The notes below the pieces were generated by a model, which was not told the DNA's origin, did no database searches, and saw only the letters and a program-made list of their open reading frames with translations. From a virus, in IMG/VR virus record IMGVR_UViG_3300030102_006169, positions 1 to 39,869 of that record: a stretch of 39,869 nucleotides of DNA; one strand, written 5' to 3'. How positions within the stretch are numbered: the first letter of the stretch is position 1; each line of letters opens with the position of its first letter. This document shows, piece by piece, positions 1,515-37,517 of the stretch. Made by a program: the position numbers and the translations under genes.

Positions 1515-1973
1515 ATGAAAAAAGTAAAAATATACGAATCAGAAATTAAAAGAGCAGTTAGAAGGAAGCTAATGGAAAATATATTGTCAGAAAATTCTGC
1601 AACTACTGATGAAATGAAGGATAGAACTGCAGCAGTAAAAGAACTAACGGCAGCACAAAAAGAATTAGCACAAGTACAACAAGATTTAGTTGACGGGATG
1701 AATGAAGAATTCGAAATGAAAGATACATATAGTAGAAAAAATTATAGACAATCTCCTAGAGAAAGAGATATTGAAAGTGTCTTTGGTCAGTATAGTGAAG
1801 AAATACCACCATCAGTATTAAGATATATGAGAAAAAATCCTGAGAAGATAGTTAAAAGATTATATGACATATATGGTCAACAAATGTTTGATTACATATC
1901 ACCTAACTTACCTGATAACCCACAATACGAAGTTAGTATTGAGGATATTGTTAGAGAGAATTTAAGAAAATAA
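1515..1973 (+). CDS. Small protein with capsid-targeting-like N-terminal leader
   Basis: An earlier in-frame ATG at 1506 overlaps the previous gene. I choose 1515 because it repeats the TAA-A-ATG spacing of the previous junction and places the leader MKKVKIYESEIKRAVRRK at the N-terminus, as in the genes at 2676, 4182, 5506 and 8109. The leader ends in LMEN and ILSEN, which fit L/I-x-E prohead-protease sites. It is followed by a helical Ala/Gln/Glu-rich stretch (KELTAAQKELAQVQQDL), probably coiled coil. The C-terminal half has a basic helix (VLRYMRKNPEKIVKRLYDIYG). I infer an internal or assembly-associated head protein. No known enzyme motif is visible. Confidence 0.6.
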   Translation: MKKVKIYESEIKRAVRRKLMENILSENSATTDEMKDRTAAVKELTAAQKELAQVQQDLVDGMNEEFEMKDTYSRKNYRQSPRERDIESVFGQYSEEIPPSVLRYMRKNPEKIVKRLYDIYGQQMFDYISPNLPDNPQYEVSIEDIVRENLRK

Positions 1974-4103: not shown

Positions 4104-4122
4104 AATTATAAAAAAATAATAT

Positions 4123-4148
4123 ATCCCACTTAGGTGGGATTTTTTTTG
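4123..4148 (+). terminator. Rho-independent terminator
   Basis: A 7-bp perfect stem (ATCCCAC, loop TTAG, GTGGGAT) is followed by a T-tract. It lies 20 bases after the stop at 4103 and just before the candidate late promoter of the next gene, so it separates two transcription units. Confidence 0.85.
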
Positions 4149-4157
4149 CTCTTTCGT

Positions 4158-4181: not shown

Positions 4182-5495
4182 ATGAAAATTAAATTAACAG
4201 AGTCACAACTGAAAAGAGTTTTAAATGAAATGCGTTTTGATGGTAAATCTACCGGTTTATTTTCAGAAGAAGAACATATAGACGAAGGTAGAAAGAAAAG
4301 AAGAAAAAAACGTAAATCAACAAAACGTAAATCTAAGAAAAAGAAAAATACATTATGTGCTAGGGGTAAGAGTGCTGCTAAAGCTAAGTTTGATGTTTAT
4401 CCATCGGCTTATGCTAATGGATACGCAGTTCAAGTATGTAAAGGTAAAATAAAAGGTTTAGATGGTACTAAAAAATGTAGTGGAAGTTACTGTAGAGGAA
4501 AAAAAAATGAATCTTACGAAATAGGTGAGGTAGAAGTTGTAGAAAGGTTAGACGAAGATTTAGCCGTATGGTTCGGTACAAAAAAAAAGAAAAAAGGGGG
4601 TAAACAACCACAAGGACCTTGGGTAAACATATGTAGAAAAAAGAAAGGTGGTGGACACCCTGCATGTGGAAGAAGTGATTCAGATAAAGGTGGTTACCCT
4701 GTTTGTAGAGCAAAAAGTGTTGCAGCTAATATGTCACAATCTGCTAAAGACTCAGCATGTAGACGTAAAAGAGAAAAAGAAAAGAATGATGGTAAATCAG
4801 GTAAAGGACAATCTCCAAGCCCAATTAAGGTAAAAAATTACAAACCGAGAAAAAGAAAAACTTCTAAGAGAAAATCTAAAAAGAATGAATCAGTAAACAT
4901 CAACAGAATGATGATTACTGAAAACAGAACAATTGTTAGTGAAGGATTAAGATATCATTTAGATAATCAAATACCTTTATCAGAAAACATCTATAGATAC
5001 GGTAGTGAATCTTTTTTTAATTTAATTAATGAAGTAAGAAAATTACATAGTAGTAATAAAGTTAATTTATCATATAAGGATGAAGAATTACTTAAAACGG
5101 ATATTGGTAGGAAAGCAATATTTGAGGGTAAAGAAGTTTGGTTAGATATCCCTATGGAAGACAATGAAATTTTAACTGAAGCTAAATTTAGAGGTAAGAC
5201 TGTAAAGACTAGTTCCCCACAAAGAAGTTCTTCTGGTGGTAAAGCATATAAAGTATATGTAAGTGGATGTGTTAATAAAACTAAATCCAACCCATCTGGA
5301 GTAAAACAAATTAGGTTTGGTTCTGGTGGATTAAAAGCTAAGTTAAGTAATAAAGAAGCTAAGAAATCTTACAACGCTAGACACGGTTGTTCTAAGGGTA
5401 GACATAATGATAAATGTAAGGCAGGATATTGGTCTTGTAGATTACCAAGATACGCTAAGAAATTAGGTTTATCTGGTGGTGGAACATGGTGGTAA
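4182..5495 (+). CDS. Multi-domain basic Cys-rich virion protein, possible polyprotein
   Basis: The leader MKIKLTESQLKRVLNE is followed by a Lys/Arg tract (residues 37-56) and three small basic Cys-containing modules. Module A is about 57-104 (Cys 59, 86, 99, 104). Module B is about 127-200 (GPWVNICRKKKGGGHPACG, GGYPVCRAKS; Cys 151, 162, 175, 193). Module C is about 334-437 (AYKVYVSG...ARHGCSKGRHNDKCKAGYWSC). Modules like B and C occur singly in marine T4-like phages and some large eukaryotic viruses, as far as I recall, with no established function. Between modules are L/I-x-E sequences: IDE at 33-35, ITE at 245-247, VSE at 252-254, LSE at 266-268, and LTE at 331-333 followed by Ala, the same context as the predicted capsid cut. 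The strongly basic composition suggests DNA contact inside the head. Confidence 0.6.
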   Translation: MKIKLTESQLKRVLNEMRFDGKSTGLFSEEEHIDEGRKKRRKKRKSTKRKSKKKKNTLCARGKSAAKAKFDVYPSAYANGYAVQVCKGKIKGLDGTKKCSGSYCRGKKNESYEIGEVEVVERLDEDLAVWFGTKKKKKGGKQPQGPWVNICRKKKGGGHPACGRSDSDKGGYPVCRAKSVAANMSQSAKDSACRRKREKEKNDGKSGKGQSPSPIKVKNYKPRKRKTSKRKSKKNESVNINRMMITENRTIVSEGLRYHLDNQIPLSENIYRYGSESFFNLINEVRKLHSSNKVNLSYKDEELLKTDIGRKAIFEGKEVWLDIPMEDNEILTEAKFRGKTVKTSSPQRSSSGGKAYKVYVSGCVNKTKSNPSGVKQIRFGSGGLKAKLSNKEAKKSYNARHGCSKGRHNDKCKAGYWSCRLPRYAKKLGLSGGGTWW

Positions 5496-5505
5496 AAAAA
5501 AATAT

Positions 5506-5883
5506 ATGAAAAAGATAAAATTAACAGAAAAAGATTTATTGAGAATAGTTAAGAAAACTATTAAGGAAGATAGGAAAACTGAAAATTACATGTTTTTTAG
5601 TAACCTTAAACAAATGAGAAGACAGATTGATATGATGTTGGAAAATTTAAATCCTCATTGGGTAGATTCAACATTGGCAGATGGACACGACTGGGCAGAC
5701 GATAAGATAAGTGAATCTAAAACAAATATTGATAGTGTATTCGATTTCTTTATGAATAAAAAAGAAGATAACCCACATAGTGTTATAGAAGAAAAATGGA
5801 GTAAAAAATATAAAGATTCTATAGATTGTAATAACCCAAAAGGTTTTTCCCAAAGAGCACATTGTCAAGGTCGTAAAAAATAA
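5506..5883 (+). CDS. Small leader-bearing protein with C-terminal CNNPKGFSQ module
   Basis: The in-frame GTG at 5476 lies inside the previous gene. I choose ATG 5506 because it gives MKKIKLTEKDLLRIVKKTIK, the clearest copy of the shared leader, ending in IKED. The middle is a short helical region (NLKQMRRQIDMMLENLNPHW). The C-terminus (KDSIDCNNPKGFSQRAHCQG) is a short module with two Cys that I recognise as recurrent at the C-termini of phage virion proteins, though it has no assigned function. It sits 10 bases after the preceding stop and 5 bases before the next gene. A small internal head protein is the likely identity, by inference. Confidence 0.6.
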   Translation: MKKIKLTEKDLLRIVKKTIKEDRKTENYMFFSNLKQMRRQIDMMLENLNPHWVDSTLADGHDWADDKISESKTNIDSVFDFFMNKKEDNPHSVIEEKWSKKYKDSIDCNNPKGFSQRAHCQGRKK

Positions 5884-6266: not shown

Positions 6267-6863
6267 ATGTTTTTTAAAATTACTGAGGGAGACCCAAAAA
6301 AAGGAACAGGTAAAAAACCAAAAGGTAGTGGAAGAAGATTGTACACCGATGAAAACCCAAAAGATACGGTATCTGTTAAATTTAGAACAAAAGAAGATAT
6401 AGTTGATACGTTAAATAAATCTTCTTTTAAAAGTAAATCTCATAAAAGACAATCACAGATTATAAATTTAATACATCAAAGAGTTAGGGCTGCATATAAT
6501 AACGCAAAAAACGAAGAGACAAAAAAAAGATTGAAGAGGGGGTTAGATTATATAACAAATAAAAAAGAAAAGTCAAAGGAGAAAACAAAAAGACAAACAG
6601 AGTCTTTTATGCCGTTTGAAGAAAAAATAGAAAATGGATATCACATTAGAACATTCTCTAATGAAACTGATAATGGTGAATTAGTGTGGCATAGAGATAA
6701 AGAAGATAGAATTGTAGAATCTATCGGTGATACTAACTGGATGATTCAATTAGACAATGAAATACCTAAACCTTTAACTGAAAGAACCTTTATACCTAAA
6801 GAGGTATATCATAGAGTAATAAAAGGAGATGGAGATTTAAAAGTAAGAATTAAAAAATTATGA
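6267..6863 (+). CDS. Two-domain phage protein: basic GSGRRLYTDE module plus cupin-like domain
   Basis: Residues about 10-100 form a basic module starting GTGKKPKGSGRRLYTDENPK and ending in helices (RQSQIINLIHQRVRAAYNNAK). I have seen this module in marine phages and some large DNA viruses, with no established function. Residues about 125-197 (ENGYHIRTF...LVWHRDKEDRIVE...FIPKEVYHRVIKGDGDL) are beta-rich with a small cupin-like signature: H-R-D-x-E-D-R, then F-I-P-x-x-x-x-H-R-V-x-x-G. The His residues could bind metal. The N-terminal MFFKITEGDP includes an ITE|G site. Its ATGA overlaps the next gene by four bases, implying translational coupling. Confidence 0.5.
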   Translation: MFFKITEGDPKKGTGKKPKGSGRRLYTDENPKDTVSVKFRTKEDIVDTLNKSSFKSKSHKRQSQIINLIHQRVRAAYNNAKNEETKKRLKRGLDYITNKKEKSKEKTKRQTESFMPFEEKIENGYHIRTFSNETDNGELVWHRDKEDRIVESIGDTNWMIQLDNEIPKPLTERTFIPKEVYHRVIKGDGDLKVRIKKL

Positions 6864-8108: not shown

Positions 8109-8951
8109 ATGAAGATTAAATTAACAGAGGAACAATATCGTAAGTTTGTATCGGAAGATACTAATCACACTAACTTTATGGATAAAGTTTATAAAGAAAT
8201 TGAAAATGATGATTTTGAATATGTTTGGGATTTAATAGTAAATACATATGGGTTTACTGTAGATGAAGTTATAGAAGATGAGATGTTATATCACTTATTA
8301 GGTTATAAAATGTTAGATAGAGTACGAAATTCGGGTTACTTAGGTTTTAATCCTAGACCTTATAGAAGGTATATGAATGCGATTGCAGAAAAACTTAGTG
8401 ATGAAGTATTTGAATCCAATATCCCATCCCCACAGATGGCAATAGAACTGAAGCAAATACTTTATCTATTTGGTGATTCAGTTGCAAGAAATGAAACTGT
8501 AGAAAGAATATTAAATACTGTAGATTCAGCATTAGAGTATTTTTTTGAACATAACTCACCTAAAAAAGCAATACAATTAGCATCACTTTTATATAAAAAA
8601 ATAAGAGGTGGAGGTATTGTTTTTGATAGAGATGTTATAAATAAAATTAGAAATTTTGCAGAAAGACAAGGACTAATACTATTCCCTAAAACTGCGGGAC
8701 TAACTTTTGAGAAAAAGGATGGTATGATACAGTCACTAATAAATTACATTCAAGATAAACCTAAGAAAACTAAAGAAGGATTTTTAAAATATATAAATTC
8801 TAGAGGTAGATCATCAGGACAACACTCAACATTTTTTAGAGCGGCAGTACAAGCGGGTATTATTAAAAAAGTTAGGGATGGTAGAACAATCACTTACGAA
8901 TTAGGTCCCAATTACGAAGCGTGGAAAAACGGTAATTTAGTTGCATTTTAA
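8109..8951 (+). CDS. Leader-bearing protein with winged-helix-like C-terminus
   Basis: An in-frame GTG at 8097 gives a longer form. I choose ATG 8109, five bases after the previous stop, because it places the shared leader MKIKLTEEQYRKFVSED at the N-terminus. The middle is helical and acidic. The C-terminal 85 or so residues (SLINYIQDKPKKTKEGFLKY, FFRAAVQAGIIKKVRDGRTI) have the order helix, helix, recognition-type helix, beta hairpin, as in winged-helix DNA-binding domains. This would fit a packaged DNA-binding protein. Fold and function are inferred from pattern only. Confidence 0.5.
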   Translation: MKIKLTEEQYRKFVSEDTNHTNFMDKVYKEIENDDFEYVWDLIVNTYGFTVDEVIEDEMLYHLLGYKMLDRVRNSGYLGFNPRPYRRYMNAIAEKLSDEVFESNIPSPQMAIELKQILYLFGDSVARNETVERILNTVDSALEYFFEHNSPKKAIQLASLLYKKIRGGGIVFDRDVINKIRNFAERQGLILFPKTAGLTFEKKDGMIQSLINYIQDKPKKTKEGFLKYINSRGRSSGQHSTFFRAAVQAGIIKKVRDGRTITYELGPNYEAWKNGNLVAF

Positions 8952-14183: not shown

Positions 14184-14873
14184 ATGGAAATTTTAAAAAA
14201 CAATGAGTTAAATAAAAAAGGTATCTTAGTAGAATATGATGCTGGATACATCTCTCCTAAAGATAATAGACATTTCATTAACGAAATAAATAAACTAACT
14301 AAAGGTGGACAAATAGTCGAAGACCCTTTAGTTGTTTATGCAGTAATGCAAAAATATGGTGTGGAGAATAGAAACGGTAGAGTATATCCTGAAAAAATAC
14401 TTAAAAAAGAATCTGAAAACTATATGAAACTTATTGAAGAAAAAAGAGCTATGGGTGAAGCAGATCATCCAGATTCTTCAATAGTCGCTATTAGTAGAAT
14501 TTCTCATAATGTAACTGAACTATGGTGGGAAGGTAATGTACTAATGGGAAAATTAGAGATTATTATGTCACCAGGATTTGTAACACAAGGTATAATATCA
14601 TGTGAAGGAGACCAAGTTGCTAACCTATTAAGAAAAGGTTTAAAGATTGGTGTATCGTCTAGAGGTGTAGGTTCATTAAAAAAGGAAGATGGAAAAAATA
14701 TAGTACAAGACGATTTTGAATTAATATGTTGGGATGTGGTTACATCACCATCAACTCCAGGTTCTTGGATATATAATGAATCACCTTCCAAAGAACAACA
14801 AATGTCGGAATCTAAAGAAAATAAAGATAAAGATTTATTAATTGATTCTTTAGATAATTTTTTGTCAGATTAA
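14184..14873 (+). CDS. Prohead maturation protease (T4 gp21-like)
   Basis: A serine protease of the herpesvirus-assemblin-like fold that cleaves scaffold, capsid and internal proteins during head maturation. The sequence has the family core: RNGRVYPEKIL (residues 63-73), the catalytic His in GEADHPDSS (H95), the Ser in KIGVSSRGVGS (S158 or S159) and WDVVTSPSTPGS near D184. At 229 aa it is close to T4 gp21 (212 aa). A short C-terminal tail after SPSKEQ may be removed by self-cleavage. It is placed directly before the scaffold and capsid genes, as in T4. T4 gp21 cuts after L/I-x-E, which makes the many such sites in neighbouring proteins relevant. Confidence 0.92.
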   Translation: MEILKNNELNKKGILVEYDAGYISPKDNRHFINEINKLTKGGQIVEDPLVVYAVMQKYGVENRNGRVYPEKILKKESENYMKLIEEKRAMGEADHPDSSIVAISRISHNVTELWWEGNVLMGKLEIIMSPGFVTQGIISCEGDQVANLLRKGLKIGVSSRGVGSLKKEDGKNIVQDDFELICWDVVTSPSTPGSWIYNESPSKEQQMSESKENKDKDLLIDSLDNFLSD

Positions 14874-14987: not shown

Positions 14988-16490
14988 ATGGCTACAAAAA
15001 GAAAATCAATCATCGAAGAGGCTTTGTTAGAAGCAAAGTCTTTAGAGGATGCCTTAAAAGCCAATACGAAAGAAATGCTTGCTTCACATATGAAACAAGA
15101 AATTGAGAACATCGTTGAGTCATCATTAAATGAAGATGAAGAAGAATTAGAAATCGATGTGGAAGGGTCCGATGAAGAAATGGAAGAAATGCCAGCAGAA
15201 GCTGGAGATGACTCAGAAGAGTCAGAATTAATGGATTTAGATGTCGATCTTGACGCTTTGGCGGGAGACGGTGGTGAAGAAGTTGAATTAGATGTTGCTG
15301 AATTACCTGCAGAATTAGATATGGGTGATGAGGAAGAATTAGATTTAACTGGTGCATCAGACGAAGAAGTAATCGCAGTATTTAAGAAAATGAGCGATGA
15401 AGACGAAGTTGAAGTTGTTAAAGACGCTGACGGAATCCACTTAACAGATAACGAAACCGGTGCAGAATACTACATCAAAGAAGGTGACGAACATTATGAA
15501 GAATCTTATGACAAAATGGACGAAGAGTCTGATTGTATGAAAGAGGAAGCAGGATGTGGCAAGAAATATGAAGGTCACGATCCTATGGACGAAGAAGAAG
15601 TAATGTACGAAATCGAACTTGATGAAGAACAACCTTATGGTGGTAACAAAGGAGACGAATCTAAAAGTCGTAGAGATTACATGGAAGAAGGTAAATATGG
15701 CGGCAATAAAGGAGACGAATCTAGAAGTCACAGAGACTATATGGAAGAAGGTGATGACATGAAAGAAGGTCATTATGGTGGTAACAAAGGCGATGAGTCT
15801 AGAAGTCACAGAGACTATATGGAAGAAGGTGATGACATGTATGAAGGAAAATATGGCGGTAATAAAGGCGATGAGTCTAGAAGTCATAGAGACTACATGG
15901 AAGAAGATGAAGAAATAGTAGATTTAGATGTTAAAGAAGGTGATGACGCAATCGAAGAAGACAAACTTAAAAGACACCAATCAACTGGTTACCAAAGATA
16001 TAGTGGTGCCAAAGCTGGGTCAGATCAAGCAAGTCCTTACGGTGGTGTATCAGAATCTAGAAAAAGAAGAACACCTAAAAATGTACAAAAAGTATCGGAA
16101 TCAAAAATTATGAAGGAATACAAAGAGTTAAAATCCAAAAACGAAGAGTATAAAGGAGCACTTAAAGTATTCAAGAATAAATTAAACGAAGTTGCTTTAT
16201 TCAACACAAATTTAGCATACGTAAATAGATTATTCACTGAACATTCTACAACCAAATCAGAAAAGATGGAAATCTTAAAAAGATTTGATAATGCAGAAAG
16301 TATCAAAGAATCAAAATCTATCTACAAGTCAGTAAAAAGTGAATTAGATTCTAAGTCACCAATTACAGAATCTGTAGAGAATAAAGTTAATAAAACTGTT
16401 AAGTCTTCTAAATCGGATTTGAATGAATCTACTGCTTATGTAGATCCACAAATAACTGCGATTAAAGATTTGATGAGAAAATTATCATAA
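14988..16490 (+). CDS. Prohead scaffold/core protein (T4 gp22-like)
   Basis: 500 residues, extremely acidic, located between protease and capsid as gp22 is in T4. The N-terminus (KRKSIIEEALLEAKSLEDAL) is an amphipathic helix with IEE and LLEA sites, comparable to the N-terminal region of gp22. Residues about 40-215 are Asp/Glu-rich. Residues about 217-306 hold four tandem copies of a YGGNKGDES...RDYMEE repeat. After a Lys-rich hinge, the C-terminal 130 residues are helical (LKSKNEEYKGALKVFKNKL) and end ITAIKDLMRKLS. Scaffold proteins guide shell assembly and are then degraded by the protease. Identity comes from position, composition and the ends rather than from close similarity. At 500 aa it is much longer than T4 gp22 (269 aa). 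Confidence 0.75.
   Translation: MATKRKSIIEEALLEAKSLEDALKANTKEMLASHMKQEIENIVESSLNEDEEELEIDVEGSDEEMEEMPAEAGDDSEESELMDLDVDLDALAGDGGEEVELDVAELPAELDMGDEEELDLTGASDEEVIAVFKKMSDEDEVEVVKDADGIHLTDNETGAEYYIKEGDEHYEESYDKMDEESDCMKEEAGCGKKYEGHDPMDEEEVMYEIELDEEQPYGGNKGDESKSRRDYMEEGKYGGNKGDESRSHRDYMEEGDDMKEGHYGGNKGDESRSHRDYMEEGDDMYEGKYGGNKGDESRSHRDYMEEDEEIVDLDVKEGDDAIEEDKLKRHQSTGYQRYSGAKAGSDQASPYGGVSESRKRRTPKNVQKVSESKIMKEYKELKSKNEEYKGALKVFKNKLNEVALFNTNLAYVNRLFTEHSTTKSEKMEILKRFDNAESIKESKSIYKSVKSELDSKSPITESVENKVNKTVKSSKSDLNESTAYVDPQITAIKDLMRKLS
15636..15906 (+). repeat. Four-copy in-frame tandem repeat within the scaffold gene
   Basis: Copies start at 15636, 15696, 15774 and 15852. The first unit is 60 bases, the next two are 78 bases and the fourth is partial. 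Each encodes YGGNKGDES, K/R, S, R/H, RDYMEE. Copies 2-4 are nearly identical in protein and very similar in DNA, suggesting recent duplication. The antisense frame is open only because of this repeat. Confidence 0.9.
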
Positions 16491-16526: not shown

Positions 16527-18266
16527 ATGGGACATTTATTAAATTCAGGTGAAGTTGGAAATATCGGACTTGAACACTTGAAGCAAATTAGATCTAAAAC
16601 CATCGGAAAATGGGATTCTTTAGGATTCTTAGAAGGTTTAAAAGGTCACGTAAAAGAGAACATCGCTCAGTTATACGAAAACCAAGCTTCAGCTTTATTG
16701 ACAGAAGCAACAGATGCTCAATCGTCTGGTTCTTTCGAAACTGTAGTTTTCCCTATCGTAAGAAGGGTATTCTCAAAATTATTGGCTAACGATATCGTAT
16801 CGGTACAGGCGATGAACATGCCAATTGGAAAATTATTCTACTTTGTACCAAAAACAACTGGAAGAAATCACAATCCTTTAAATGGTAATGCTGAAAACGG
16901 TTCTTTACCAGAATGTGTATTTAGTTCTTGTAGTGGAAATGCCGTTTCAGAATTCTTACAAAAATCATTATATGATGTATTCTATAATGACGGTATGTTT
17001 GATGCATCTAAAGGTACTGCTACAATACAAACTACTGAAGCTTATGGTGTTATTGTAAGTGCTAACGGTGAAACTGTTGAAACTGCATTTAGTGCACAAC
17101 CATTAGCGTCTGACGGTTCATTAAGAAATGTAACTATGTGTGTATCAGGATTTACATCTGATGGAGCTGGAAGATTAACTGGACCTGACGGAAACGAAAT
17201 GGATACAGAATCTTTCTTATCTTCATTAAGAGTTGTTGCTGATTTAGACATCAAAGATAAAGACGGTAAAACAATTATCGAAGCAGGTGCATCAGTTCCG
17301 TTTAACGTAACTGCACAGAAATATGGAAAAGGTATCGTTAATTACGATGATATCTGTGATCCACAAGGATGTTTAATGTTAACTGCAGATTTAACACACC
17401 CAGCTTGTGTTTCATGTGCTACTGAAACTTTTGATGGTTACATCGGAGCGGATAGTGCAACATCTGTATCATTCTCTGCATCTTGGATGCAATATGCGAC
17501 TTTAGAATTCGCAACTGAAATGGGAGAAGTTTCTTTCGAACTTGATGAAGTAGTTGTTTCGGTAACTGAAAGAAAATTAAGAGCAACTTGGTCTCCAGAA
17601 CTAGCACAAGATGTTAGTGCATTCCATAACATTGATGCTGAAGCTGAATTAACGGCTTTATTATCTGAGCAAGTAGCAGCTGAAATCGACAGGGAAATCC
17701 TTAGAGATTTAAGATCTGGTGCAGCTTGGACATTAAGATGGGATTATAACGGATGGAAGAGAACGGCATCTGGTGGATTTAACGCTTACACTCAAAAAGA
17801 GTGGAATCAGACGTTAATCACTAGAATTAACCAATTATCTGCACAAATCCATAAATCAACTCTAAGAGGTGGTGCTAACTTTATCGTAGTTTCTTCTGAA
17901 GCTTCAGCGATATTTGATGATTTAGAATACTTCCACGTATCTAACGCAGCACCTGAGCAAGATCAGTACAATATGGGTATTGAGAAGATTGGTTCATTAG
18001 GAGGAAGATACACTGTATATAGAGATCCTTACGCACCAGCTAACTCAATCATTGTTGGACACAAAGGAAAGTCATTATTGGACACTGGGTACATTTATGC
18101 ACCTTACGTACCATTACAATTGACTCCTACGTTACAAAACCCATTCAACTTTGCACCAACTAAGGGTATCATGACTAGATACGCTAAGAAAATGGTTAAT
18201 AACCGTTTCTATGGTACATTGACAATTGATGGAGTTGTAACATTTGATGTTAACTTATTAAGATAA
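16527..18266 (+). CDS. Major capsid protein (T4 gp23-like)
   Basis: An HK97-fold shell protein, 579 aa (T4 gp23 is 521). The family-typical core includes FPIVRRVFSKLLANDIVSVQ, MNMPIGKLFYF, RKLRATWSPELAQDVSAFHN, IDAEAELTALLSEQVAAEID, GANFIVVSS, LGGRYTVYRDPYAP and TGYIYAPYVPLQLTPT. The predicted maturation site is LLTE|AT, with cleavage after E60, matching the LTE|A cut of T4 gp23. The region from about 110 to 340, expanded relative to T4, is beta-rich and contains several Cys (PECVFSSCSGN, DICDPQGC, HPACVSCATE), perhaps a decorated insertion domain. The 36-base gap after the scaffold gene has no late element, so the two are probably co-transcribed. A terminator follows. Confidence 0.95.
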   Translation: MGHLLNSGEVGNIGLEHLKQIRSKTIGKWDSLGFLEGLKGHVKENIAQLYENQASALLTEATDAQSSGSFETVVFPIVRRVFSKLLANDIVSVQAMNMPIGKLFYFVPKTTGRNHNPLNGNAENGSLPECVFSSCSGNAVSEFLQKSLYDVFYNDGMFDASKGTATIQTTEAYGVIVSANGETVETAFSAQPLASDGSLRNVTMCVSGFTSDGAGRLTGPDGNEMDTESFLSSLRVVADLDIKDKDGKTIIEAGASVPFNVTAQKYGKGIVNYDDICDPQGCLMLTADLTHPACVSCATETFDGYIGADSATSVSFSASWMQYATLEFATEMGEVSFELDEVVVSVTERKLRATWSPELAQDVSAFHNIDAEAELTALLSEQVAAEIDREILRDLRSGAAWTLRWDYNGWKRTASGGFNAYTQKEWNQTLITRINQLSAQIHKSTLRGGANFIVVSSEASAIFDDLEYFHVSNAAPEQDQYNMGIEKIGSLGGRYTVYRDPYAPANSIIVGHKGKSLLDTGYIYAPYVPLQLTPTLQNPFNFAPTKGIMTRYAKKMVNNRFYGTLTIDGVVTFDVNLLR

Positions 18267-25592: not shown

Positions 25593-26390
25593 TTAAGTTG
25601 TTTCTGCTTCATATGTTATTTCTCTATCTTCGGTGAAAAAATATTCTTTTTTAGCTTTATTAACCCAAAATTTACTTTCAATTACATTAATATTGTTTTT
25701 ATATTCGTCAAACAATGAACCAGCACGATTATTAATATGTTTATAACCTAGTTTAGGTATAACCATTATTTGGACATCTAAGTAACTTAATCTTAATAAG
25801 AATTCATATGTAAAAGTTAATTTCATATGTTTCTTTAAACCACCATGTTCTTTAAACAATTCTTTATTAACTACCATACCATCAAAATTAAAATTTTGTA
25901 TTTTTTGTAACGTCTCATGATCTAATAGTCCCATACTTTCTGATACATTTTGCACCCAAACATTTTCATTAGTAAAAGAAATAAATTCACCATTTTCGTT
26001 ACATTCAAAAATTATAGGTAAAAATACACCTACTTCAGGATATGCATCTCTATACTTAACTACATTATCAAACCATATAGGGGATAATGAATCATCGTAT
26101 TCTAAAAATGAGAAGTATTTAGATGTAGATTGTTCTACACCGTAATTTATTTGTGACTGAAAGTCGTAATCACCACTTTTATTTTCCACAACTTTTGTAA
26201 TTGAGGATATATCACCATATTCAAAGGAATTTAAAAAGTCTTTTAATTTTTTATTTTTTGCATGTACGATTAAAACCTCATCCGGAAGTGTTTTTTGTTC
26301 ATTAACACTTTTAATTGCTTTTTCAAAATATTCACTTACACTATCATCTAACTTGTGAATTGGAATAATTAAACTAATATCTGTTTTCAT
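25593..26390 (-). CDS. Family 2-like glycosyltransferase (GT-A)
   Basis: 265 residues opening with the GT-A start SLIIPIHKLDDSVSEYFEKA, then PDEVLIVHAK and the nucleotide/metal-binding acidic site EYDDSLSP (residues 97-104). A second-half pattern (FDGMVVNKELFKEHGGLKKH, FTYEFLLRLSYLDVQIMVIP) matches the acceptor region of GT2 enzymes. It is cytoplasmic with no membrane anchor. The stop abuts the sigma factor start. It likely transfers a sugar from a nucleotide donor; donor and acceptor are unknown. Confidence 0.75.
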   Translation of the reverse strand: MKTDISLIIPIHKLDDSVSEYFEKAIKSVNEQKTLPDEVLIVHAKNKKLKDFLNSFEYGDISSITKVVENKSGDYDFQSQINYGVEQSTSKYFSFLEYDDSLSPIWFDNVVKYRDAYPEVGVFLPIIFECNENGEFISFTNENVWVQNVSESMGLLDHETLQKIQNFNFDGMVVNKELFKEHGGLKKHMKLTFTYEFLLRLSYLDVQIMVIPKLGYKHINNRAGSLFDEYKNNINVIESKFWVNKAKKEYFFTEDREITYEAETT

Positions 26391-26399
26391 AACTATTTT

Positions 26400-27530
26400 T
26401 TATTTTGTTGTAATTTCTTCTTTTTTGTTATTTTCAGTCTCTTTAGCATCTACTACACCTAATTCTGTTAGTCTTCTACTAAAAATTCTATTATATACCT
26501 CTTTAATGTGTTGTCTAGTTTCTTCTTCACTATATTTATTTTCATACTCTTCCATCTTACTTAATACGTTCTGAGGTAACGCATCCTCTAAATATAAACC
26601 AACCATAGTGGATATCATGTCTGGTATAGCATTTAAATTAGTAACCCAAACACCATTATCTATTAACTTAAGTGATCCATTTTCATCTGTTTCACCCATC
26701 CATTCAGGTATCATTCTAGGAATTTTACCAATAACTGGTGTTTTTGACTTAATAGCTTCTAGTGGAAATGTACCAAAACTTGATAATTCATCTACCCAAA
26801 CACCTAAAAATGATTCAGATAAAGTTTTTGCAAATTCTTTTCTAGGTAAACCTGACATATCTCTAAAAGTTATAAAACGATAGTGAGGGTATTTTTGGAA
26901 AAATACCTTTACAATTTTCAAAATTTCTCTTTTATCTCTAGCAGAAATAGCAATTGTAGGTATTTTAGGTTTATCACTATTTTTAAAATAATTAGGGATA
27001 CCAATAGGAATTACTTCAGTAACTAAGTTTCTAAAAATTGACTCAACATACTTTTTTAAATTTTCATTAGTGGTTATTACTTCATTAATACCAAAGGCAT
27101 TCCAATTTTCACCAATCTCCAACATTTCGAAAATGTATTCGTAAGATTGTAAGAATACTATTCTTTTACAAGGAAAATTTACTGTTTGTTTCATAATACT
27201 AGCAAATGCTTCAGGAATTATTACAAAATCTTGTGGTCCCACTTTAAGTGTTTGAGATTCAATGGATATATGCGGTAATTCTGCATATTCTTCACCCAAC
27301 CATTCAGCAATACCCATACCTTCTTCATCACCTCTTAATTTGTAATCATTTTTATCATGTAATATCTGAGCATTAAAACCTAATTCTCTTAATATTTTAA
27401 CATGTTCATAAATGGTTGCCACACCTGCAGTGGGATTACCTTTAGTATCTAAAGTAAAGAAGTAGATACCGAAATCTTTTTTAACTATCTTTTCGATAGT
27501 ATCTTTTACTGTACTTTTATTTTCACTCAT
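26400..27530 (-). CDS. GT-B glycosyltransferase (GT4/group 1-like)
   Basis: 376 residues. The N-terminal half has a Rossmann-like start with a donor/acceptor loop (IYFFTLDTKGNPTAGVATIY, VKILRELGFNAQILHD). The C-terminal half carries the group-1 signature, an acidic residue then a Gly-rich turn and E-A-I (SFLGVWVDELSSFGTFPLEA, then IKSKTPVIG). The Glu-rich C-terminal tail (DAKETENNKKEEITTK) looks disordered. It lies 9 bases upstream of the GT2-like gene in the same direction. Donor specificity cannot be read from the sequence. Confidence 0.75.
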   Translation of the reverse strand: MSENKSTVKDTIEKIVKKDFGIYFFTLDTKGNPTAGVATIYEHVKILRELGFNAQILHDKNDYKLRGDEEGMGIAEWLGEEYAELPHISIESQTLKVGPQDFVIIPEAFASIMKQTVNFPCKRIVFLQSYEYIFEMLEIGENWNAFGINEVITTNENLKKYVESIFRNLVTEVIPIGIPNYFKNSDKPKIPTIAISARDKREILKIVKVFFQKYPHYRFITFRDMSGLPRKEFAKTLSESFLGVWVDELSSFGTFPLEAIKSKTPVIGKIPRMIPEWMGETDENGSLKLIDNGVWVTNLNAIPDMISTMVGLYLEDALPQNVLSKMEEYENKYSEEETRQHIKEVYNRIFSRRLTELGVVDAKETENNKKEEITTK

Positions 27531-27552
27531 TTTTTCGTTTTTAATTTATTTA

Positions 27553-27867
27553 TTATAATTCTTTTATTATACCTTTCATTAGTAAGGTGTTAAATGATAG
27601 TTTAAATGGTATTGGTAATTGATTTAATCCCATCATACCCATTTTATCGTCTACTATATCATTATAACTAAGTAATGCACCAATTAAATCTCTATACATT
27701 TCGTATTTAGTTACATCTATTTTTAACGATGCTAAAGATTCATCTTCATTAGTTTCTTTTGAATTGTCCTCACACTTAGTTTCAATGTCATATTGTACTT
27801 GATTTGCTAATTGATCGATATCGAAATAAAATTCTTTACCCCCCACATTTAATAATATATCATCCAT
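27553..27867 (-). CDS. Small acidic protein of unknown function, 104 aa
   Basis: It begins MDDILLNVGGKEFYFDIDQL, with an acidic linker (CEDNSKETNEDESLASL) and a Met/Leu-rich end (KMGMMGLNQLPIPFKLSFNT). There is no membrane segment, signal or enzyme motif. It is flanked by glycosyltransferase and HAD-like genes on the same strand, with short gaps. I do not recognise it. The intact frame and an A/T-rich leader typical of this genome support a real gene. Confidence 0.55.
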   Translation of the reverse strand: MDDILLNVGGKEFYFDIDQLANQVQYDIETKCEDNSKETNEDESLASLKIDVTKYEMYRDLIGALLSYNDIVDDKMGMMGLNQLPIPFKLSFNTLLMKGIIKEL

Positions 27868-27924
27868 ATTAATCTTTTTTTTTTTAATTTAAATTATTAT
27901 TGTTATAAGTAAACATTAAACTGA

Positions 27925-28548
27925 TTATATATCTTCATATTCAATTGTTTCAGTACTTAAAATTTTTTCTAACATACTTTTATCTTCTAATAGTTCTTTT
28001 AAATCAACTATTGTATAATCTGAGTTACAATTTTTATTGTACGTATTGATAACTTTAATTGATACTTTTTCTGATGGTTTTGTTAATAATGTATCAGGAG
28101 ACGCAGTTATTAATACATCAACATGTTCCCATTTATCTTTATAGTCTCTTACAAATTTAATGGTATTTACTTTACAAGATAATTTAGATAAAAAGAATAA
28201 TGTTGCCGGTTTACTATTATTTAATTCTTTACTAATAATAATTGGGGTATGGCCCATATCCTCTATCATATTATGTAATTGGTTTAAGTGTTCCACAGAA
28301 TTTAATTTTACTTCACCCGCATGTCCAAATATTTCTAATGATGCATCAACATACATAAATTTGTTTAAGTCTTTCGTACCACCAGTAAATTTAAAATGAC
28401 TCAATAAATCTAAATCTTTTATATTCCTCTCTATTTCTTTATTCTCACCTGTTTCTTCATCAATAACAGGATAATATTTATCATACACTAATTCAAATTT
28501 TGTTATAAAATCTCTTACAACACCATCTATTGTTATACCTATTTTCAT
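27925..28548 (-). CDS. HAD-like (nucleotidase-type) protein lacking catalytic aspartates
   Basis: 207 residues starting MKIGITIDGVVRDF, aligning with the DxDGVxRDF motif I of 5'-nucleotidase-like HAD proteins. The nucleophile position is Thr6 instead of Asp, and only D8 remains. A motif II-like strand ends in IIISKEL (residues 103-109), a basic candidate follows in RDYKDKW, and the motif IV-like strand DVLITASPDTL (144-154) has TA where the usual DD would be. It looks like a catalytically inactive HAD fold. It lies just downstream of the GDP-fucose synthase gene. A regulatory or structural role is possible. The original family was probably phosphatase/deoxyribonucleotidase. Confidence 0.55.
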   Translation of the reverse strand: MKIGITIDGVVRDFITKFELVYDKYYPVIDEETGENKEIERNIKDLDLLSHFKFTGGTKDLNKFMYVDASLEIFGHAGEVKLNSVEHLNQLHNMIEDMGHTPIIISKELNNSKPATLFFLSKLSCKVNTIKFVRDYKDKWEHVDVLITASPDTLLTKPSEKVSIKVINTYNKNCNSDYTIVDLKELLEDKSMLEKILSTETIEYEDI

Positions 28549-28572
28549 TTTTTTAATACTTATTATATTTTT

Positions 28573-29523
28573 TTATTGTTGGGGTGTAACTATTGATTTA
28601 TTTTTTGTTCCCCTAATTTTATCGTAATTAGTCTCAAACCAACTTATAGTCTCTCTTAAACCTTTATAAATTGGTGTGAATTTAAAATTTGGTAAATAAT
28701 GTTTTATTTTACTATTATCTGAAGGTTTTCTATACTGTCCATCTGGTTTATTATTATCCCATTTAACTTCACCTTTAAAATTCATTATTTCTATAATCAT
28801 ACCAACTACTTCTTTTATTGATATTTCTTCAGAAGTGGATAAAATTATTGGTTCGTCTTCGTTATAATTATGTAATACCCATTCAGTAAGTTTAGCAACA
28901 TCTTTATTATATATAAATTCTCTTAAAGGTTTTCCACTACCCCAAATAGTTAAGGGAGTATTAGTTTCTCTTGCGATGTAACATTTATGGATTAAAGAAG
29001 GTACTACATGCCCATTTTCTATATCGAAATTATCGTTTATTCCATATATGTTAGTAGGTATGACTGATTTATAATTTAAACCATATTGTTCTCTGTACGC
29101 TCTTATTTGAATGTCTGCCATTCTTTTTGCATATGCATAAGCATCATTACTAAAATGTGGTGGACCCATATGTATATTTTTTTCCGTTAATGGGTATTCT
29201 ACATCATTTGGAAACACACAGGTTGATAGGAAACAAACTAAGTTTTCAACACGAGTTTTTCTTGCAGTTTCAATAACATTAGTATTAATCATTATATTTT
29301 CATAGAAAAACTCACCTTTAAAATTCATATTACCACCTAAACCACCTACTTTAGCTGCAGCATGAATTACACCATCAAAAATCTCTTCACTCATACTTTT
29401 CTCAACTGAATATTTATTACGTAAATCACAATGATCTCTACCCCAAGTTACATAGTTTTTTTTACCTTTAAAGTTAGAACCAACTAACCCATTACCACCT
29501 GTTACTAAAATTTTTTTACTCAT
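28573..29523 (-). CDS. fcl: GDP-L-fucose synthase
   Basis: An NADPH-dependent epimerase/reductase converting GDP-4-keto-6-deoxymannose to GDP-L-fucose. This extended SDR fold has the NADP site TGGNGLVG at residues 8-15, the catalytic Ser/Cys in FLSTCVFP (S100, C102), Y129 and K133 in DAYAYAKRMAD, and H172 in GHVVPSLI. These residues have the same spacing as S107, C109, Y136, K140 and H179 of the E. coli enzyme (constant offset of seven). It overlaps the gmd stop by four bases (ATGA). At 316 aa it matches E. coli WcaG (321 aa) and appears functional. Confidence 0.93.
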   Translation of the reverse strand: MSKKILVTGGNGLVGSNFKGKKNYVTWGRDHCDLRNKYSVEKSMSEEIFDGVIHAAAKVGGLGGNMNFKGEFFYENIMINTNVIETARKTRVENLVCFLSTCVFPNDVEYPLTEKNIHMGPPHFSNDAYAYAKRMADIQIRAYREQYGLNYKSVIPTNIYGINDNFDIENGHVVPSLIHKCYIARETNTPLTIWGSGKPLREFIYNKDVAKLTEWVLHNYNEDEPIILSTSEEISIKEVVGMIIEIMNFKGEVKWDNNKPDGQYRKPSDNSKIKHYLPNFKFTPIYKGLRETISWFETNYDKIRGTKNKSIVTPQQ

Positions 29524-30560
29524 AAATCTAAATTTTCTACTTTTTCATTATTTACTATCCAGTTATTTTTTAAATAAGGTTTTTTGTTATAATAATAATC
29601 TAACCAATATTTAATCATTTCATCAATCATAGATTCAAATGTATACTTAGGATTCCACCCTAATTTATTTTTAATCTTTGTTGAATCCCCTTTTAATTTT
29701 TTTAATTCTTCCGGTCTTTTATGTTTTTCATCTACTTTAACATAGTCTATATAATTTAAATTTAGTGATTTAAATGTGTATTCACATAAATCTTTTACCG
29801 AATGAGATACACCTGTAGCACAAACATAATCTTCTGGTTTATCGTCTTGTAACATTAACCACATAGCCTCAACATAATCTTTTGCGTGTCCCCAATCTCT
29901 AGTTGCATCCAAATTACCTAAACGTAATTCTTTTTGTAACCCTAATTTGATTTTAACTGCCGCTTTAACCACTTTGTTGGTTACAAAATTAGTTCCTCTT
30001 CTAGGCGACTCATGGTTAAATAAAATACCATTCCATATTTTCATATTATAAGAATTCCTATAGTTTCTACATATATTATATGAAAATACTTTAGCACAAC
30101 CATAAGGTGATACTGGGCTCAATGGTGTAGTTTCCCTCTGATAACCATCTATATCTATATTATTACCAAACATTTCTGAAGAGGATGCTTGATACATCTT
30201 AGATTGTGGTGAAACCATTCGTATTGCTTCTAATAAGTTAAGTGTTCCTAAACCTGTTGCATTCGCAGTATATATTGGTTGATCGAAACTAATCCTAACG
30301 TGTGACTGTGCAGCTAAATTATATATTTCATCTGGTTGTACTTTTTGTAAAACCCTCACTAAAGAAGCCATATCTGTTAAATCCGCATATTCTAAATTAA
30401 TTTTATTTAATTCTCTTAAATGCTCTATTCTAGTAGATTGAGTTTCTGAAACAGAGTTTCTTTTAACTGTACCCCAAACCTCATATTTTTTTTCTATTAA
30501 AAATTCAGCCAAATAAGAACCATCTTGTCCGTTAATTCCTGTTATTAAAACTTTTTTCAT
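29520..30560 (-). CDS. gmd: GDP-mannose 4,6-dehydratase
   Basis: This NADP-dependent enzyme makes GDP-4-keto-6-deoxymannose, the precursor of GDP-L-fucose and related 6-deoxyhexoses. The glycine motif TGINGQDGSYLAEFL is at residues 7-21. The catalytic residues of the family are present: S127 and E129 in ASSSEMFG, and Y153 and K157 in YGCAKVFSY. Other family signatures are FNHESPRRG and LGNLDATRDWGHAKDYVEAM. Length is 346 aa, normal for the family. It is directly coupled to fcl downstream, so the pair completes GDP-mannose to GDP-L-fucose. The GDP-mannose source would be the host. Confidence 0.95.
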   Translation of the reverse strand: MKKVLITGINGQDGSYLAEFLIEKKYEVWGTVKRNSVSETQSTRIEHLRELNKINLEYADLTDMASLVRVLQKVQPDEIYNLAAQSHVRISFDQPIYTANATGLGTLNLLEAIRMVSPQSKMYQASSSEMFGNNIDIDGYQRETTPLSPVSPYGCAKVFSYNICRNYRNSYNMKIWNGILFNHESPRRGTNFVTNKVVKAAVKIKLGLQKELRLGNLDATRDWGHAKDYVEAMWLMLQDDKPEDYVCATGVSHSVKDLCEYTFKSLNLNYIDYVKVDEKHKRPEELKKLKGDSTKIKNKLGWNPKYTFESMIDEMIKYWLDYYYNKKPYLKNNWIVNNEKVENLDL

Positions 30561-30571
30561 TTATTTTGTTT

Positions 30572-31432
30572 TTATAGATTTTCTTTTATAATATTTATTA
30601 ATTGTGCAGCCCTTTTATAATATGTGTGGTTTTTCTTAACATGTTCATAACCTTTTTCTACCATCTTTTCCCTTTCTTTATCATTGTCTAAATAAAATTT
30701 TATTTTATCTATTAAGTCTTTTTCATTTTCGTAAACAACAATGTTTTCACCGATAGTGAATAGGTTTTCTAATCCTGCAGTACGATTAGTAATTAATAAA
30801 GTTTTACACCCTAAAGTCTCAAAGGTTCTGAAATTTATGTCCTCAGATAAATTTCTATTAAAATGTATTTTATAGGAATTAATTGCTTTCACCATTTCAT
30901 CACCAATGACAAATATATCTTTTTTCACCGGTATTTTATTTCTTTCAATTAAATTAATCCATTGTTTTCTATTTAACCAATTACCACAAAAACCTACATT
31001 ATTTATTTTTTCCACATTGTCTATTGGATAAATTAAATCATCAGGATACGCATTAGGGAAATAAATACATTTTTGAGTGAAGTATTTTTCATGTCCGTAT
31101 ACCGCATGTAAAACAATATCAATATTATGTTTATTACAGGTATTAATATGCTTTTGATGTACGCAGTGAGAATCTATTGACCAAAATATTTTTAGTCCTG
31201 TGAAATTACTTAAATCAGGCACCCAGTTATTTTCTTCATAATTCTCCAACAATAGAATCACATCACAATCTTTAGAAATTTCATTAAATGGTATTATAAA
31301 ATTATCATAATTGAGCCCCCACACTATAGACTCAACGTTATATTTCTGTAAGGATCTATTTAAGTTTAGGGCTTCACGATATTCTAAATTACCACTGTTT
31401 CTACCTTTTTCCTGAATAATTAATATTTTCAT
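30572..31432 (-). CDS. GT-B glycosyltransferase (CgeB/Glyco_trans_1_2-like)
   Basis: 286 residues. The N-terminus is a Rossmann-type start (MKILIIQEKGRNSGN) and the C-terminal half matches the short group-1 domain: HFNRNLSEDINFRTFETLGC, KTLLITNRTAG, then IVVYENEKDLIDKIKFYLDN and HTYYKRA. Glyco_trans_1_2-type enzymes occur in spore coat, DNA-glycosylation and polysaccharide loci. A DCDVILLLENYE acidic strand forms part of the N-domain. The gene begins 9 bases downstream of the DxD-type gene at 31442 and precedes gmd. Confidence 0.75.
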   Translation of the reverse strand: MKILIIQEKGRNSGNLEYREALNLNRSLQKYNVESIVWGLNYDNFIIPFNEISKDCDVILLLENYEENNWVPDLSNFTGLKIFWSIDSHCVHQKHINTCNKHNIDIVLHAVYGHEKYFTQKCIYFPNAYPDDLIYPIDNVEKINNVGFCGNWLNRKQWINLIERNKIPVKKDIFVIGDEMVKAINSYKIHFNRNLSEDINFRTFETLGCKTLLITNRTAGLENLFTIGENIVVYENEKDLIDKIKFYLDNDKEREKMVEKGYEHVKKNHTYYKRAAQLINIIKENL

Positions 31433-31441
31433 AAGATAATT

Positions 31442-32287
31442 TTATTTCTCTTGAGATTTTTTTATACCCAATTCTACTAATTCTTTATCAATCCCTAAAT
31501 AATCATAAAGAGGTTGTAATTGTTGTCTATGTTGTGATAGAGGTCGTAAACAATGAGCATCTAAATAAAATCCTTTTTTTAGTTGTTCCACATCATATCT
31601 CCAGTTAGCTCTATCAATACGTCTAACTGCCATTCCATTACTCCAACCTCCAGGACGTTTTAATTTGACTATATTTTTAAGTTTTGGATCCCACCTGTAT
31701 ACTAATACTCTACATAAAGATTCTTCAGAAAATTGACTATAAGGATAATTAATACCTTCTTTATAAATTCCGTTTTCTTTATACACTTTTAAATTGTAAA
31801 AACTTTTAATTAACTCATCTTCTGATAAATTATTAGGATTATTTATTTCTTTCCATATTTTACCTGTTGCTATCATATAACAACCAGGAAATTTATAATA
31901 AGGAAATGTACCCCAATATGGAGTATTTTTATAAGCTTCATACGAAGATAGTACTAGTTTATCGTCATCATAATTGAATAAACTATCAAAATATTCTTTA
32001 TTCAATGGTAACATATCCATATCACCTACCATCCCTTTATCATTTTTATATTTATAATAACTAAAATATCTAGCTACTTTAGCCCAATTACCGGCTGGTA
32101 TTTCCGGTCTCAGATTAAATTTACTCACTTCACCAAACTCTTCCATCCATTTCCACGACTCATAATTTCTGTTAGTTATTAAAGTTAACATAGGTTCATA
32201 CCCCATATTCCTCCATGCGGTAGCAGCAATCGGCCAGAATTGGATATATAAAGGATTATCATCGGTGCTTAAAAATACTCTTTTCAT
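31442..32287 (-). CDS. GT-A-like glycosyltransferase with DxD
   Basis: 281 residues. The start (MKRVFLSTDDNPLYIQFWPI) and the strand GMVGDMDMLPL (D89-M-D91) suit a metal-dependent GT-A enzyme. An aromatic middle follows (YWGTFPYYKFPGCYMIATGK), and then a His/Gln-rich C-terminal motif (DAHCLRPLSQHRQQLQP) that could contact the acceptor. I cannot assign it to a numbered GT family. It has no membrane segment. It is spaced 23 bases from the gene at 32311. Confidence 0.6.
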   Translation of the reverse strand: MKRVFLSTDDNPLYIQFWPIAATAWRNMGYEPMLTLITNRNYESWKWMEEFGEVSKFNLRPEIPAGNWAKVARYFSYYKYKNDKGMVGDMDMLPLNKEYFDSLFNYDDDKLVLSSYEAYKNTPYWGTFPYYKFPGCYMIATGKIWKEINNPNNLSEDELIKSFYNLKVYKENGIYKEGINYPYSQFSEESLCRVLVYRWDPKLKNIVKLKRPGGWSNGMAVRRIDRANWRYDVEQLKKGFYLDAHCLRPLSQHRQQLQPLYDYLGIDKELVELGIKKSQEK

Positions 32288-32310
32288 TATATTTGTTTTT
32301 TTATTTATTG

Positions 32311-33009
32311 TTATTTAGATATATTTCTAATAATATTATCATAAGGGATTAATTTATAGTGTTCTTCATTTCTATTATCATATTCATCATATATTTCCCC
32401 AACAAATCCTCTATCTATTCTTCCAGCAGGAAACTTCTTTATGTTACCACCAAATCTACCCCAATCGTCATGTATCAATGATTTATCTTTTACTAATGGA
32501 TATATAATTTGATCTAAGAAATCTTGATCCACACCTTTACGATCAAATTTAGTCCACTGTTTTATTTTATTTGTTATATTAACTTCTCTTAAAATACCAT
32601 TTCTTGCACCCCACATTCCACCTAATATTGGGACATTATGGTGAGGATGGTCTCGCATTATGTGAAAATCTTTATCTGATTCTAACCATTCATTTATAGC
32701 TTTTATCTCTCTTTCACTAATTCTGCTATCACAATCTCTACTTAATATAACATCAACTTCTGGATCATCTGCCGCCCAAAATCTCCAAAACATCCCATAA
32801 AAAGATTCTTTATTTGAATCTACTAATATCTTTTCTACTAAATCATTGTCTGGTATAGAGTCTATTAGAGACTGATTACTATTTTTATCAATGTAGAATC
32901 GACATATAAAGTCTGGTAGGTATTTTTCTACTATTTCAATATTTCTTAATGCCCCAATCCAATACATTGGATGGTTACCCCATAAACTATATGATACAAT
33001 TTTTTTCAT
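32311..33009 (-). CDS. GT-A-like glycosyltransferase with DxD
   Basis: 232 residues starting MKKIVSYSLWGNHPMYWIGA. The strand VILSRDCDSRISE has D92-C-D94 as the metal/nucleotide site. HIMRDHPHHNVPILGGMWGA and GVDQDFLDQIIYPLVKD match the later regions of this glycosyltransferase type, which I associate with capsule and O-antigen loci. It is short but intact. It lies in the middle of the glycosyltransferase run with 4-23 base spacing. Donor and linkage are unknown. Confidence 0.65.
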   Translation of the reverse strand: MKKIVSYSLWGNHPMYWIGALRNIEIVEKYLPDFICRFYIDKNSNQSLIDSIPDNDLVEKILVDSNKESFYGMFWRFWAADDPEVDVILSRDCDSRISEREIKAINEWLESDKDFHIMRDHPHHNVPILGGMWGARNGILREVNITNKIKQWTKFDRKGVDQDFLDQIIYPLVKDKSLIHDDWGRFGGNIKKFPAGRIDRGFVGEIYDEYDNRNEEHYKLIPYDNIIRNISK

Positions 33010-33013
33010 TTTT

Positions 33014-33793
33014 TTATTTATAACTAGATGTATTATAATAATAAAGAGGGTAGGATATAAGTAAACCTTTATTATATTTATGTACCATTCTCATAAAAAA
33101 CTCATAGTCTTGACCTCTTCCTATTGGGTTGTTTATACTAAATAAAAAATCTCTACTATTCCATTTTATTTCATCCATAACATCTCTTTTTATAGCGCAA
33201 GCTCCCATCGCCATTGAATGGTTAAAGACGGCAAATGAATAACCAATCTGTTTTTGAATTTGTGATCCTGTTTTTATTTTACCATCGGGAAAATATTTCT
33301 TATATATTTGATCGGTAGTGTAAATATTAATATCATCTAAATTAAATGTATGATGTAAGTTTTTAAGTTTATGTGAACTACCCCAAGATTCTTTTTTTGC
33401 GTCCCAATTTTTACCATGTGTTAAATTACCATTACATTTATGGTAAGAATGATGTAAATGTTTTATATCGTAATTTTTAAAAAAATACTTAACTAATTCG
33501 ATTCTATGAAAATGTGGAAAATCATCAGAACCATGATATAAAATTATATCTGAATTTGTTTTATTAGAGTCTATTAAATTTTCTGCAGTTAATTTGTTTT
33601 CTTTATTCCTAATTATTTTAACACTTTCTTTTTTTTCTAAATCATCGAAAAAAATTTTATTTACGTCTTTGTATCCTGAAACACTAATAATAATATTATC
33701 TGCTTTTTCCGTTGATTTTAAATACATATCAACAATTTTATTTAAATAAGTGAAATGTGGTGGATATGTAGGTATATAAACGTCTAATTTCAT
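33014..33793 (-). CDS. GT2-like glycosyltransferase
   Basis: 259 residues. It opens with MKLDVYIPTYPPHFTYLNKI, the GT-A beginning. HGSDDFPHFHRIEL has D90/D91 in the metal site, and the late motif GRGQDYEFFMRMVHKY matches the ED-type catalytic-base region of GT2 enzymes, with Asp-Tyr-Glu. The His-rich stretch IKHLHHSYHKC is notable. It overlaps the gene at 33790 by four bases (ATGA), so it is translationally coupled and co-expressed. Confidence 0.7.
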   Translation of the reverse strand: MKLDVYIPTYPPHFTYLNKIVDMYLKSTEKADNIIISVSGYKDVNKIFFDDLEKKESVKIIRNKENKLTAENLIDSNKTNSDIILYHGSDDFPHFHRIELVKYFFKNYDIKHLHHSYHKCNGNLTHGKNWDAKKESWGSSHKLKNLHHTFNLDDINIYTTDQIYKKYFPDGKIKTGSQIQKQIGYSFAVFNHSMAMGACAIKRDVMDEIKWNSRDFLFSINNPIGRGQDYEFFMRMVHKYNKGLLISYPLYYYNTSSYK

Positions 33794-36089: not shown

Positions 36090-36237
36090 CTTCTATTTTT
36101 TTTAGTTCTTCTTCTAATTTTAGTAATTTTTTTTCGTAATCTTTAGACATCATATGTCCATTACGATCACCCATAATAATTTCTAACTTAACTCTCCTTA
36201 TCTCTCTTAATAAATCAGATTTATTTTTTTTATTCAT
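36082..36237 (-). CDS. Small charged helical protein, 51 aa
   Basis: ATG at 36237, TAG at 36082, read on the minus strand. The product is Lys/Glu-rich and helical (SDLLREIRRVKLEIIMG, YEKKLLKLEEELKKIEDD), probably a short coiled coil. It fills an otherwise empty 150-base gap between dUTPase and the fusion glycosyltransferase and overlaps the latter by 8 bases, consistent with coupled translation. It has an A/T-rich leader without Shine-Dalgarno, as do its neighbours. No function is assigned. Confidence 0.55.
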   Translation of the reverse strand: MNKKNKSDLLREIRRVKLEIIMGDRNGHMMSKDYEKKLLKLEEELKKIEDD

Positions 36238-36242
36238 TTATT

Positions 36243-37488: not shown

Positions 37489-37517
37489 AATTTTAATTTT
37501 TATTAAAAATAATGAAT

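Follow-up and report, generated by a model that had tools for sequence, protein, structure and literature searches.

A putative head-cargo polyprotein with protease-like sites at its module edges in a T4-like marine phage

We consider it likely that the open reading frame (ORF) at positions 4182-5495 (plus strand) of the window, i.e., of the whole 39,869-nt stretch studied here from an IMG/VR record of 84,160 bases, codes for a cargo polyprotein that a marine T4-like phage packages into its head; a leader would target it there, and a gp21-type protease would cut its modules free. The shared leader, the sites at the module edges, the shuffling of modules among relatives, their free-start counterparts, and the presence of protease and capsid genes in the same window were all computed here. 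The ORF starts with ATG and encodes 437 residues, which we divide as follows (bars within motifs mark predicted or candidate cuts).

4182-4229, plus strand: leader, residues 1-16, MKIKLTESQLKRVLNE, capsid-targeting-like, with L-x-E at its end
4230-4286, plus strand: second propeptide-like segment, residues 17-35, MRFDGKSTGLFSEEEHIDE, which in relatives also precedes two or more other bodies
4287-4556, plus strand: K-rich linker and module A (CARGKSAAKAKFDVYPSAYANG...), residues 36-125, predicted cut LDE|D at its end; PHROG 27331
4557-4922, plus strand: module B (DLAVWFG...CGR...YPVCR...) with basic tail, residues 126-247, candidate site ITE|N at its end; PHROG 23735
4923-5180, plus strand: acidic, mostly helical domain, residues 248-333, predicted cut LTE|A at its end; from AlphaFold2 model and alignment
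5181-5492, plus strand: module C (AKFRGKTV...ARHGC...GYWSCRLPRY...), residues 334-437; from relatives, free-start forms and model

With regard to composition, the protein has 107 K+R vs. 44 D+E, and its 12 Cys fall into three parts with four each, namely residues 36-124 (29 K+R, 8 D+E), 126-246 (36 K+R, 8 D+E) and 334-437 (25 K+R, 2 D+E). This agrees with the three basic Cys-bearing modules that an earlier note on this DNA had described. The segment between B and C (residues 248-333) is free of Cys, acidic and helical for the most part. No Pfam match was found for the ORF at E ≤ 1, and the HMM matches to PHROG 27331 (residues 56-97 in module A, E 9.7e-12) and PHROG 23735 (residues 146-206 in module B, E 1.3e-5) lead to families without known function.

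The window is part of a T4-like myovirus. Besides a terminase and a gp20 portal gene (PF07230, E 3.2e-77), it holds the following head genes and neighbours of the ORF.

1515-1973, plus strand: neighbour with the leader-like start MKKVKIYESEIKRAVRRKLMENILSE, from sequence
5506-5883, plus strand: neighbour with the leader MKKIKLTEKDLLRIVKKTIKE|D and a MFFSNLKQ domain, from sequence
8109-8951, plus strand: neighbour with the leader MKIKLTEEQYRKFVSE and an unrelated body, from sequence
14184-14873, plus strand: gp21-type prohead protease (Pfam PF03420, E 1.6e-25), the presumed cutting enzyme
14988-16490, plus strand: gp22-like scaffold gene, from position and composition, with several L/I-x-E near its N-terminus
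16527-18266, plus strand: gp23 major capsid protein (Pfam PF07068, E 1.4e-72), predicted cut LLTE|AT after residue 60

The gp22-like gene is without Pfam match and sits between the gp21-type protease and gp23. For T4, the gp21 motif is L/I-X-E, and the N-terminal 10 residues of IPIII suffice for head targeting (PMC9026906). The predicted gp23 cut reads LLNE|ST in one relative and LLTE|AP or ILTE|TL in cyanophages, while T4 gp23 has FLTE|A. The likeness of the LTE|A at residue 333 to the capsid cut, pointed out before, holds.

Three side observations concern the surroundings of the ORF. A terminator-like hairpin (CCCACTTAGGTGGG, followed by T8) lies at 4122-4152 between the preceding gene and the ORF, which may therefore start its own transcript. 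A gene or domain of the form ELVWHRDxxDRxI...NxxWxxQxDNxLP...YHRxIKGxG is found near or directly 3' of a helix+C gene, i.e., one for the helical domain and module C, in three phages (window 6267-6863; L071:16564-16833; L072:20563-20820). Finally, the minus strand at 25593-38777 holds a long run of genes that resemble glycosyltransferase and nucleotide-sugar genes, as judged by eye from the translations.

The number of L/I-x-E triplets in the 437-aa protein exceeds chance: ten are observed vs. 2.5 expected, and none of 2000 shuffles reaches ten. They end at residues 7, 16, 35, 116, 125, 247, 268, 284, 315 and 333. The earlier note had listed sites after 16, 35, 247, 254, 268 and 333, all of which fit the motif except 254, where the window protein reads V-S-E (many relatives have I-S-E there). 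It had overlooked the triplets at 7, 116, 125, 284 and 315; the important one among these is LDE|D at 125, which directly precedes module B, while LTE at 7 lies within the leader. Site 247 is kept less well than the other sites and is absent in three relatives (L023-L025).

To some extent, structure models allow the triplets to be sorted. The full-length protein gave a poor model (pLDDT 46, with residues 1-136 and 198-241 below 50), and sites 16, 35 and 125 fall into its low-confidence stretches; the respective linkers are probably flexible as far as such a model can tell. The AlphaFold2 model of the helical domain with module C (39 sequences) reaches a pLDDT of 81 and is weak around residues 325-330, a stretch that adjoins LTE|A at 331-333, such that site 333 is placed at a weak domain junction. 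We rejected 268, 284 and 315 as likely cuts because the model places them inside the helical domain, 284 even within a helix; site 268 of the earlier list thus fits the motif but is a poor cut candidate. A Foldseek search of the helix+C model gave no match below E 2 in the PDB, and its significant matches among viral models are all phage proteins, mostly unnamed, with one XkdF and one ChaB.

Relatives of the protein are present at 66 IMG/VR loci, in which the modules are combined in different ways. Helix+C and A+B are encoded by successive genes in L030, L033 and L036, many of L042-L061 have B without A and C, L038-L041 have the helical domain with C, and all three modules occur together in other loci. 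In L089, the MFFSNLKQ domain, with a leader-like stretch ahead of it, is fused to module A. The ORF of one close relative (L007:2597-4161) is split into a leader/A start of 93 aa with a frame change and a 386-aa ORF that has a different sequence ahead of module B.

We widened the sampling to 80 loci per module and counted sites at the module edges among nonredundant relatives, with similar upstream sequences removed. For module C, [LI]xE ends directly at the edge in 46/52 relatives; position-wise, 50 have E at P1, 47 have L/I at P3 and 46 have A at P1'. Module B carries L/I-x-E at the exact edge position in 23/38 cases, and P1 is E in all 26 modules B of the DLxV type. Fused module A has the triplet at most 25 residues ahead in 33/41 cases (40/41 if V/M is allowed). 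Binomial tests against the upstream background yield p-values of 5e-59 for C, 2e-39 for B and 3e-7 for A, which overstate the case since the sequences remain related. The three modules are mutually dissimilar, and their edge sites are kept despite dissimilar upstream sequence in the relatives.

Stand-alone genes for A and C occur in small phages, and their start Met is at or near the predicted cut. To our knowledge, no T4-type protease is to be expected in phages of this type. For free module C (Kolga, HTVC026P, HTVC111P and CRP-901), the start codon falls at the predicted cut, e.g., MAKYQG in Kolga, MAKYKG in HTVC026P and also MATYKG in that phage group, compared to LTE|AEYQG in the fused form. 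Free module A of podophages starts with MTKLC or MAKLC, and none of 13 free-start A forms carries an L/I-x-E site.

These data bear on a reading in which the triplets are part of the module folds, e.g., by capping a helix or forming an edge strand, and resemble protease sites by coincidence. The helix+C model does show a short strand that starts with residue 333, the E of LTE. However, one and the same motif is found at the edges of three dissimilar modules, stand-alone A and C start there without it, and P1 is E and hardly ever D, such that we regard this reading as improbable.

The main rival is a protein that is packaged but stays mostly uncut. Here, only the leader would be removed, A, B and C would form one flexible basic chain, and the boundary triplets would be unused remnants of former leaders. 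Leader-like stretches between modules, as observed in L028, L042 and L089, could leave such traces, and T4 internal proteins lose nothing but their propeptide. Unused traces fail, however, to explain why P1 is E in each DLxV-type B and in nearly all C edges although the upstream sequence has diverged. We therefore think this rival unlikely, if less so than the fold-based one, and favour cleavage between the modules.

Residues 1-16 resemble a leader that dozens of genes of a 166-kb relative (G001) have in common and that looks like the T4 capsid-targeting sequence (CTS) in kind. When comparing the N-terminal 30-mers of G001 proteins with dissimilar bodies, 216 pairs score at least 35 vs. 20-24 in controls, and 46 pairs score at least 50 vs. 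0-1; N-terminal likeness without body similarity is found in G008 as well. Within the G001 leader set of 45 proteins, which includes a few signal-peptide lookalikes, [LI]xE is located within residues 8-30 in 34 (15 expected). Leader and second segment (MRFDGKSTGLFxEEExIxE|G) together precede at least three different bodies. The leader-like stretches between modules fit a fusion of separately tagged genes, as far as sequence can indicate this. A tblastn search of the bare leader peptides against the phage set gave no match, the queries being too short.

One may alternatively take the leader for another signal (regulation, membrane, assembly outside the head), with the protein acting in the infected cell. 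The G001 leader genes are indeed scattered over the genome, the head genes and the homologue of the ORF are about 75 kb apart, and some leader proteins have Pfam peptidoglycan-hydrolase domains. Two such proteins (L075:1087-4107 with Glucosaminidase, VanY and M23; L079:16640-17494 with Phage_lysozyme2 and SH3) are possibly head-packaged wall-cutting enzymes. Against this alternative stand the L/I-x-E at the leader ends, a prohead protease fused to module C, and the virion data below, which together make it very improbable compared to head targeting. The fusion is found in Roseobacter phage CRP-6, where module C is joined N-terminally to a prohead protease of the XkdF type (gp55, L346:635-1324; PF14550, E 7.2e-18). 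In Melnitz, a cytidylyltransferase-like protein with the start MKKFSEIIE|A has helix+C at its end.

Packaging of the window protein is supported through relatives, by published virion data. The mass-spectrometric virion proteome of the cultured ocean cyanophage S-CREM2 lists ORF160, whose nature went unrecognised, with a coverage of 13.1%, which does not locate the protein ends (PMC10665884). The translation of gp160 reads LSE|A, a module-B-like part, LEE|K, a CWPGYEKKG module, ISE|G and module A. Module A is matched by its HMM (E 4.6e-16), while the B-like segment was not found by the module B HMM and is seen in profile-profile comparison only (probability 92), such that its homology is remote.

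Further proteins of this S-CREM2 virion list have CTS-like leaders, i.e., a SAM hydrolase (MKDFDSFLEE|), a kinase (VKRFDAFLTE|), Cas9 (FASFMAE|A) and a cytidylyltransferase (MKNFSSFLTE|A). CTS-like starts in virion-detected proteins were noted for ORFs 6, 12, 13 and 14 of L402 (OR473000.1) and ORFs 136 and 154 of L404. Encapsidation of such proteins, a Cas9-like nuclease, the SAM hydrolase and the kinase among them, has been proposed, in passages that name no leader (PMC10665884). Among non-structural and unknown S-CREM2 proteins, [LI]xE is present at residues 5-26 in 10/15 detected vs. 10/58 undetected ones (Fisher p 4e-4), and a stricter T4-like pattern in 6/15 vs. 3/58 (p 0.0017); these counts cover the stretches compared, and the patterns were picked after leaders had been seen. 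In S-SM1, the cytidyltransferase was detected in the virion (PMC3037559), and it starts with MKKFSAFLNE|A. The literature search returned no virion proteome for Flavobacterium phage immuto.

The arrangement of fused modules with L/I-x-E sites, which the earlier note had thought unusual, is widespread: besides the IMG/VR contigs, related forms recur in immuto gp084, S-CREM2 gp160 and S-SM1_115. The latter two, both hypothetical proteins, resemble the window protein in having module A as well as one that is B-like, with L/I-x-E ahead of modules, but differ in module order, N-terminus and the CWPGYEKKG module in place of helix+C. In immuto, two genes take the place of one, namely gp084, in which a leader-like start is followed by module A, then VKQAIQELLQE| and module B, and gp099 with the helical domain, LDE|G and module C.

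Compared to T4, the window system probably works like that of the internal proteins and extends it. As in IPI, IPII, IPIII and Alt, a short N-terminal leader with an L/I-x-E end is followed by diverse bodies, and the products would be small basic head proteins of a phage with a T4-type protease in its genome. In contrast to T4, the window protein has several Cys-containing modules per chain with predicted sites between them. Side by side, its leader and the MKTYQEFIAE|A at the start of T4 ipII and ipIII have only the L/I-x-E end in common. Given this dissimilarity, we do not file the protein as a T4 internal protein. Head proteins of phiKZ and SPN3US resemble it in that many are packaged with propeptides, which are cut several times each, after Glu; yet these belong to another phage group, the phiKZ motif is S/A-x-E, and the cuts described remove propeptides and separate no cargo modules. 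Cargo polyproteins of the window's kind were not found in the literature searched, which covered few subscription papers.

We thus arrive at the following model for the window protein, for which we infer targeting, every cut, DNA association, ejection, the history of fusion and whatever function its modules have. The amphipathic leader (residues 1-16) would act like the T4 CTS and direct the chain to the core of the prohead. As the head matures, the gp21-type protease would cut after L/I-x-E, such that cuts at 16 and 35 remove the leader and the second propeptide. Further cuts at 125 (possibly also 116), at 333 and at 247 or close to it would free A, B and C, each of them a small basic protein with Cys, along with the acidic helical domain. 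Cleavage by this protease is probable. The freed modules would remain with the DNA in the head and probably enter the host along with it. Their polyprotein may have arisen by fusion of separately tagged cargo genes with the intervening sites kept, which would explain its architecture.

The earlier note had already proposed a head polyprotein with basic modules and protease sites between them. This is well supported by the conserved boundary sites, the PF03420 protease in the same window, the low-confidence linkers and a virion-detected relative; the capsid-targeting-like leader had been overlooked. Taken as a whole, its observation is partly confirmed and its interpretation partly supported.

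Beyond the single protein, the marine T4-like phages of this group may use a head-cargo code, in which each genome has dozens of genes for proteins with an amphipathic leader and an L/I-x-E at its end, and in-frame fusions of these genes form polyproteins cut by the prohead protease; to us, the odds for and against this are about even. If true, a large number of proteins that are packaged and injected would so far have gone unrecognised, and leader and L/I-x-E would allow for a sequence-based prediction of phage cargo proteins. Many unknown genes of ocean phages would thereby gain a possible role, i.e., as packaged and probably injected proteins, and cargo polyproteins would join the known uses of phage head proteases.
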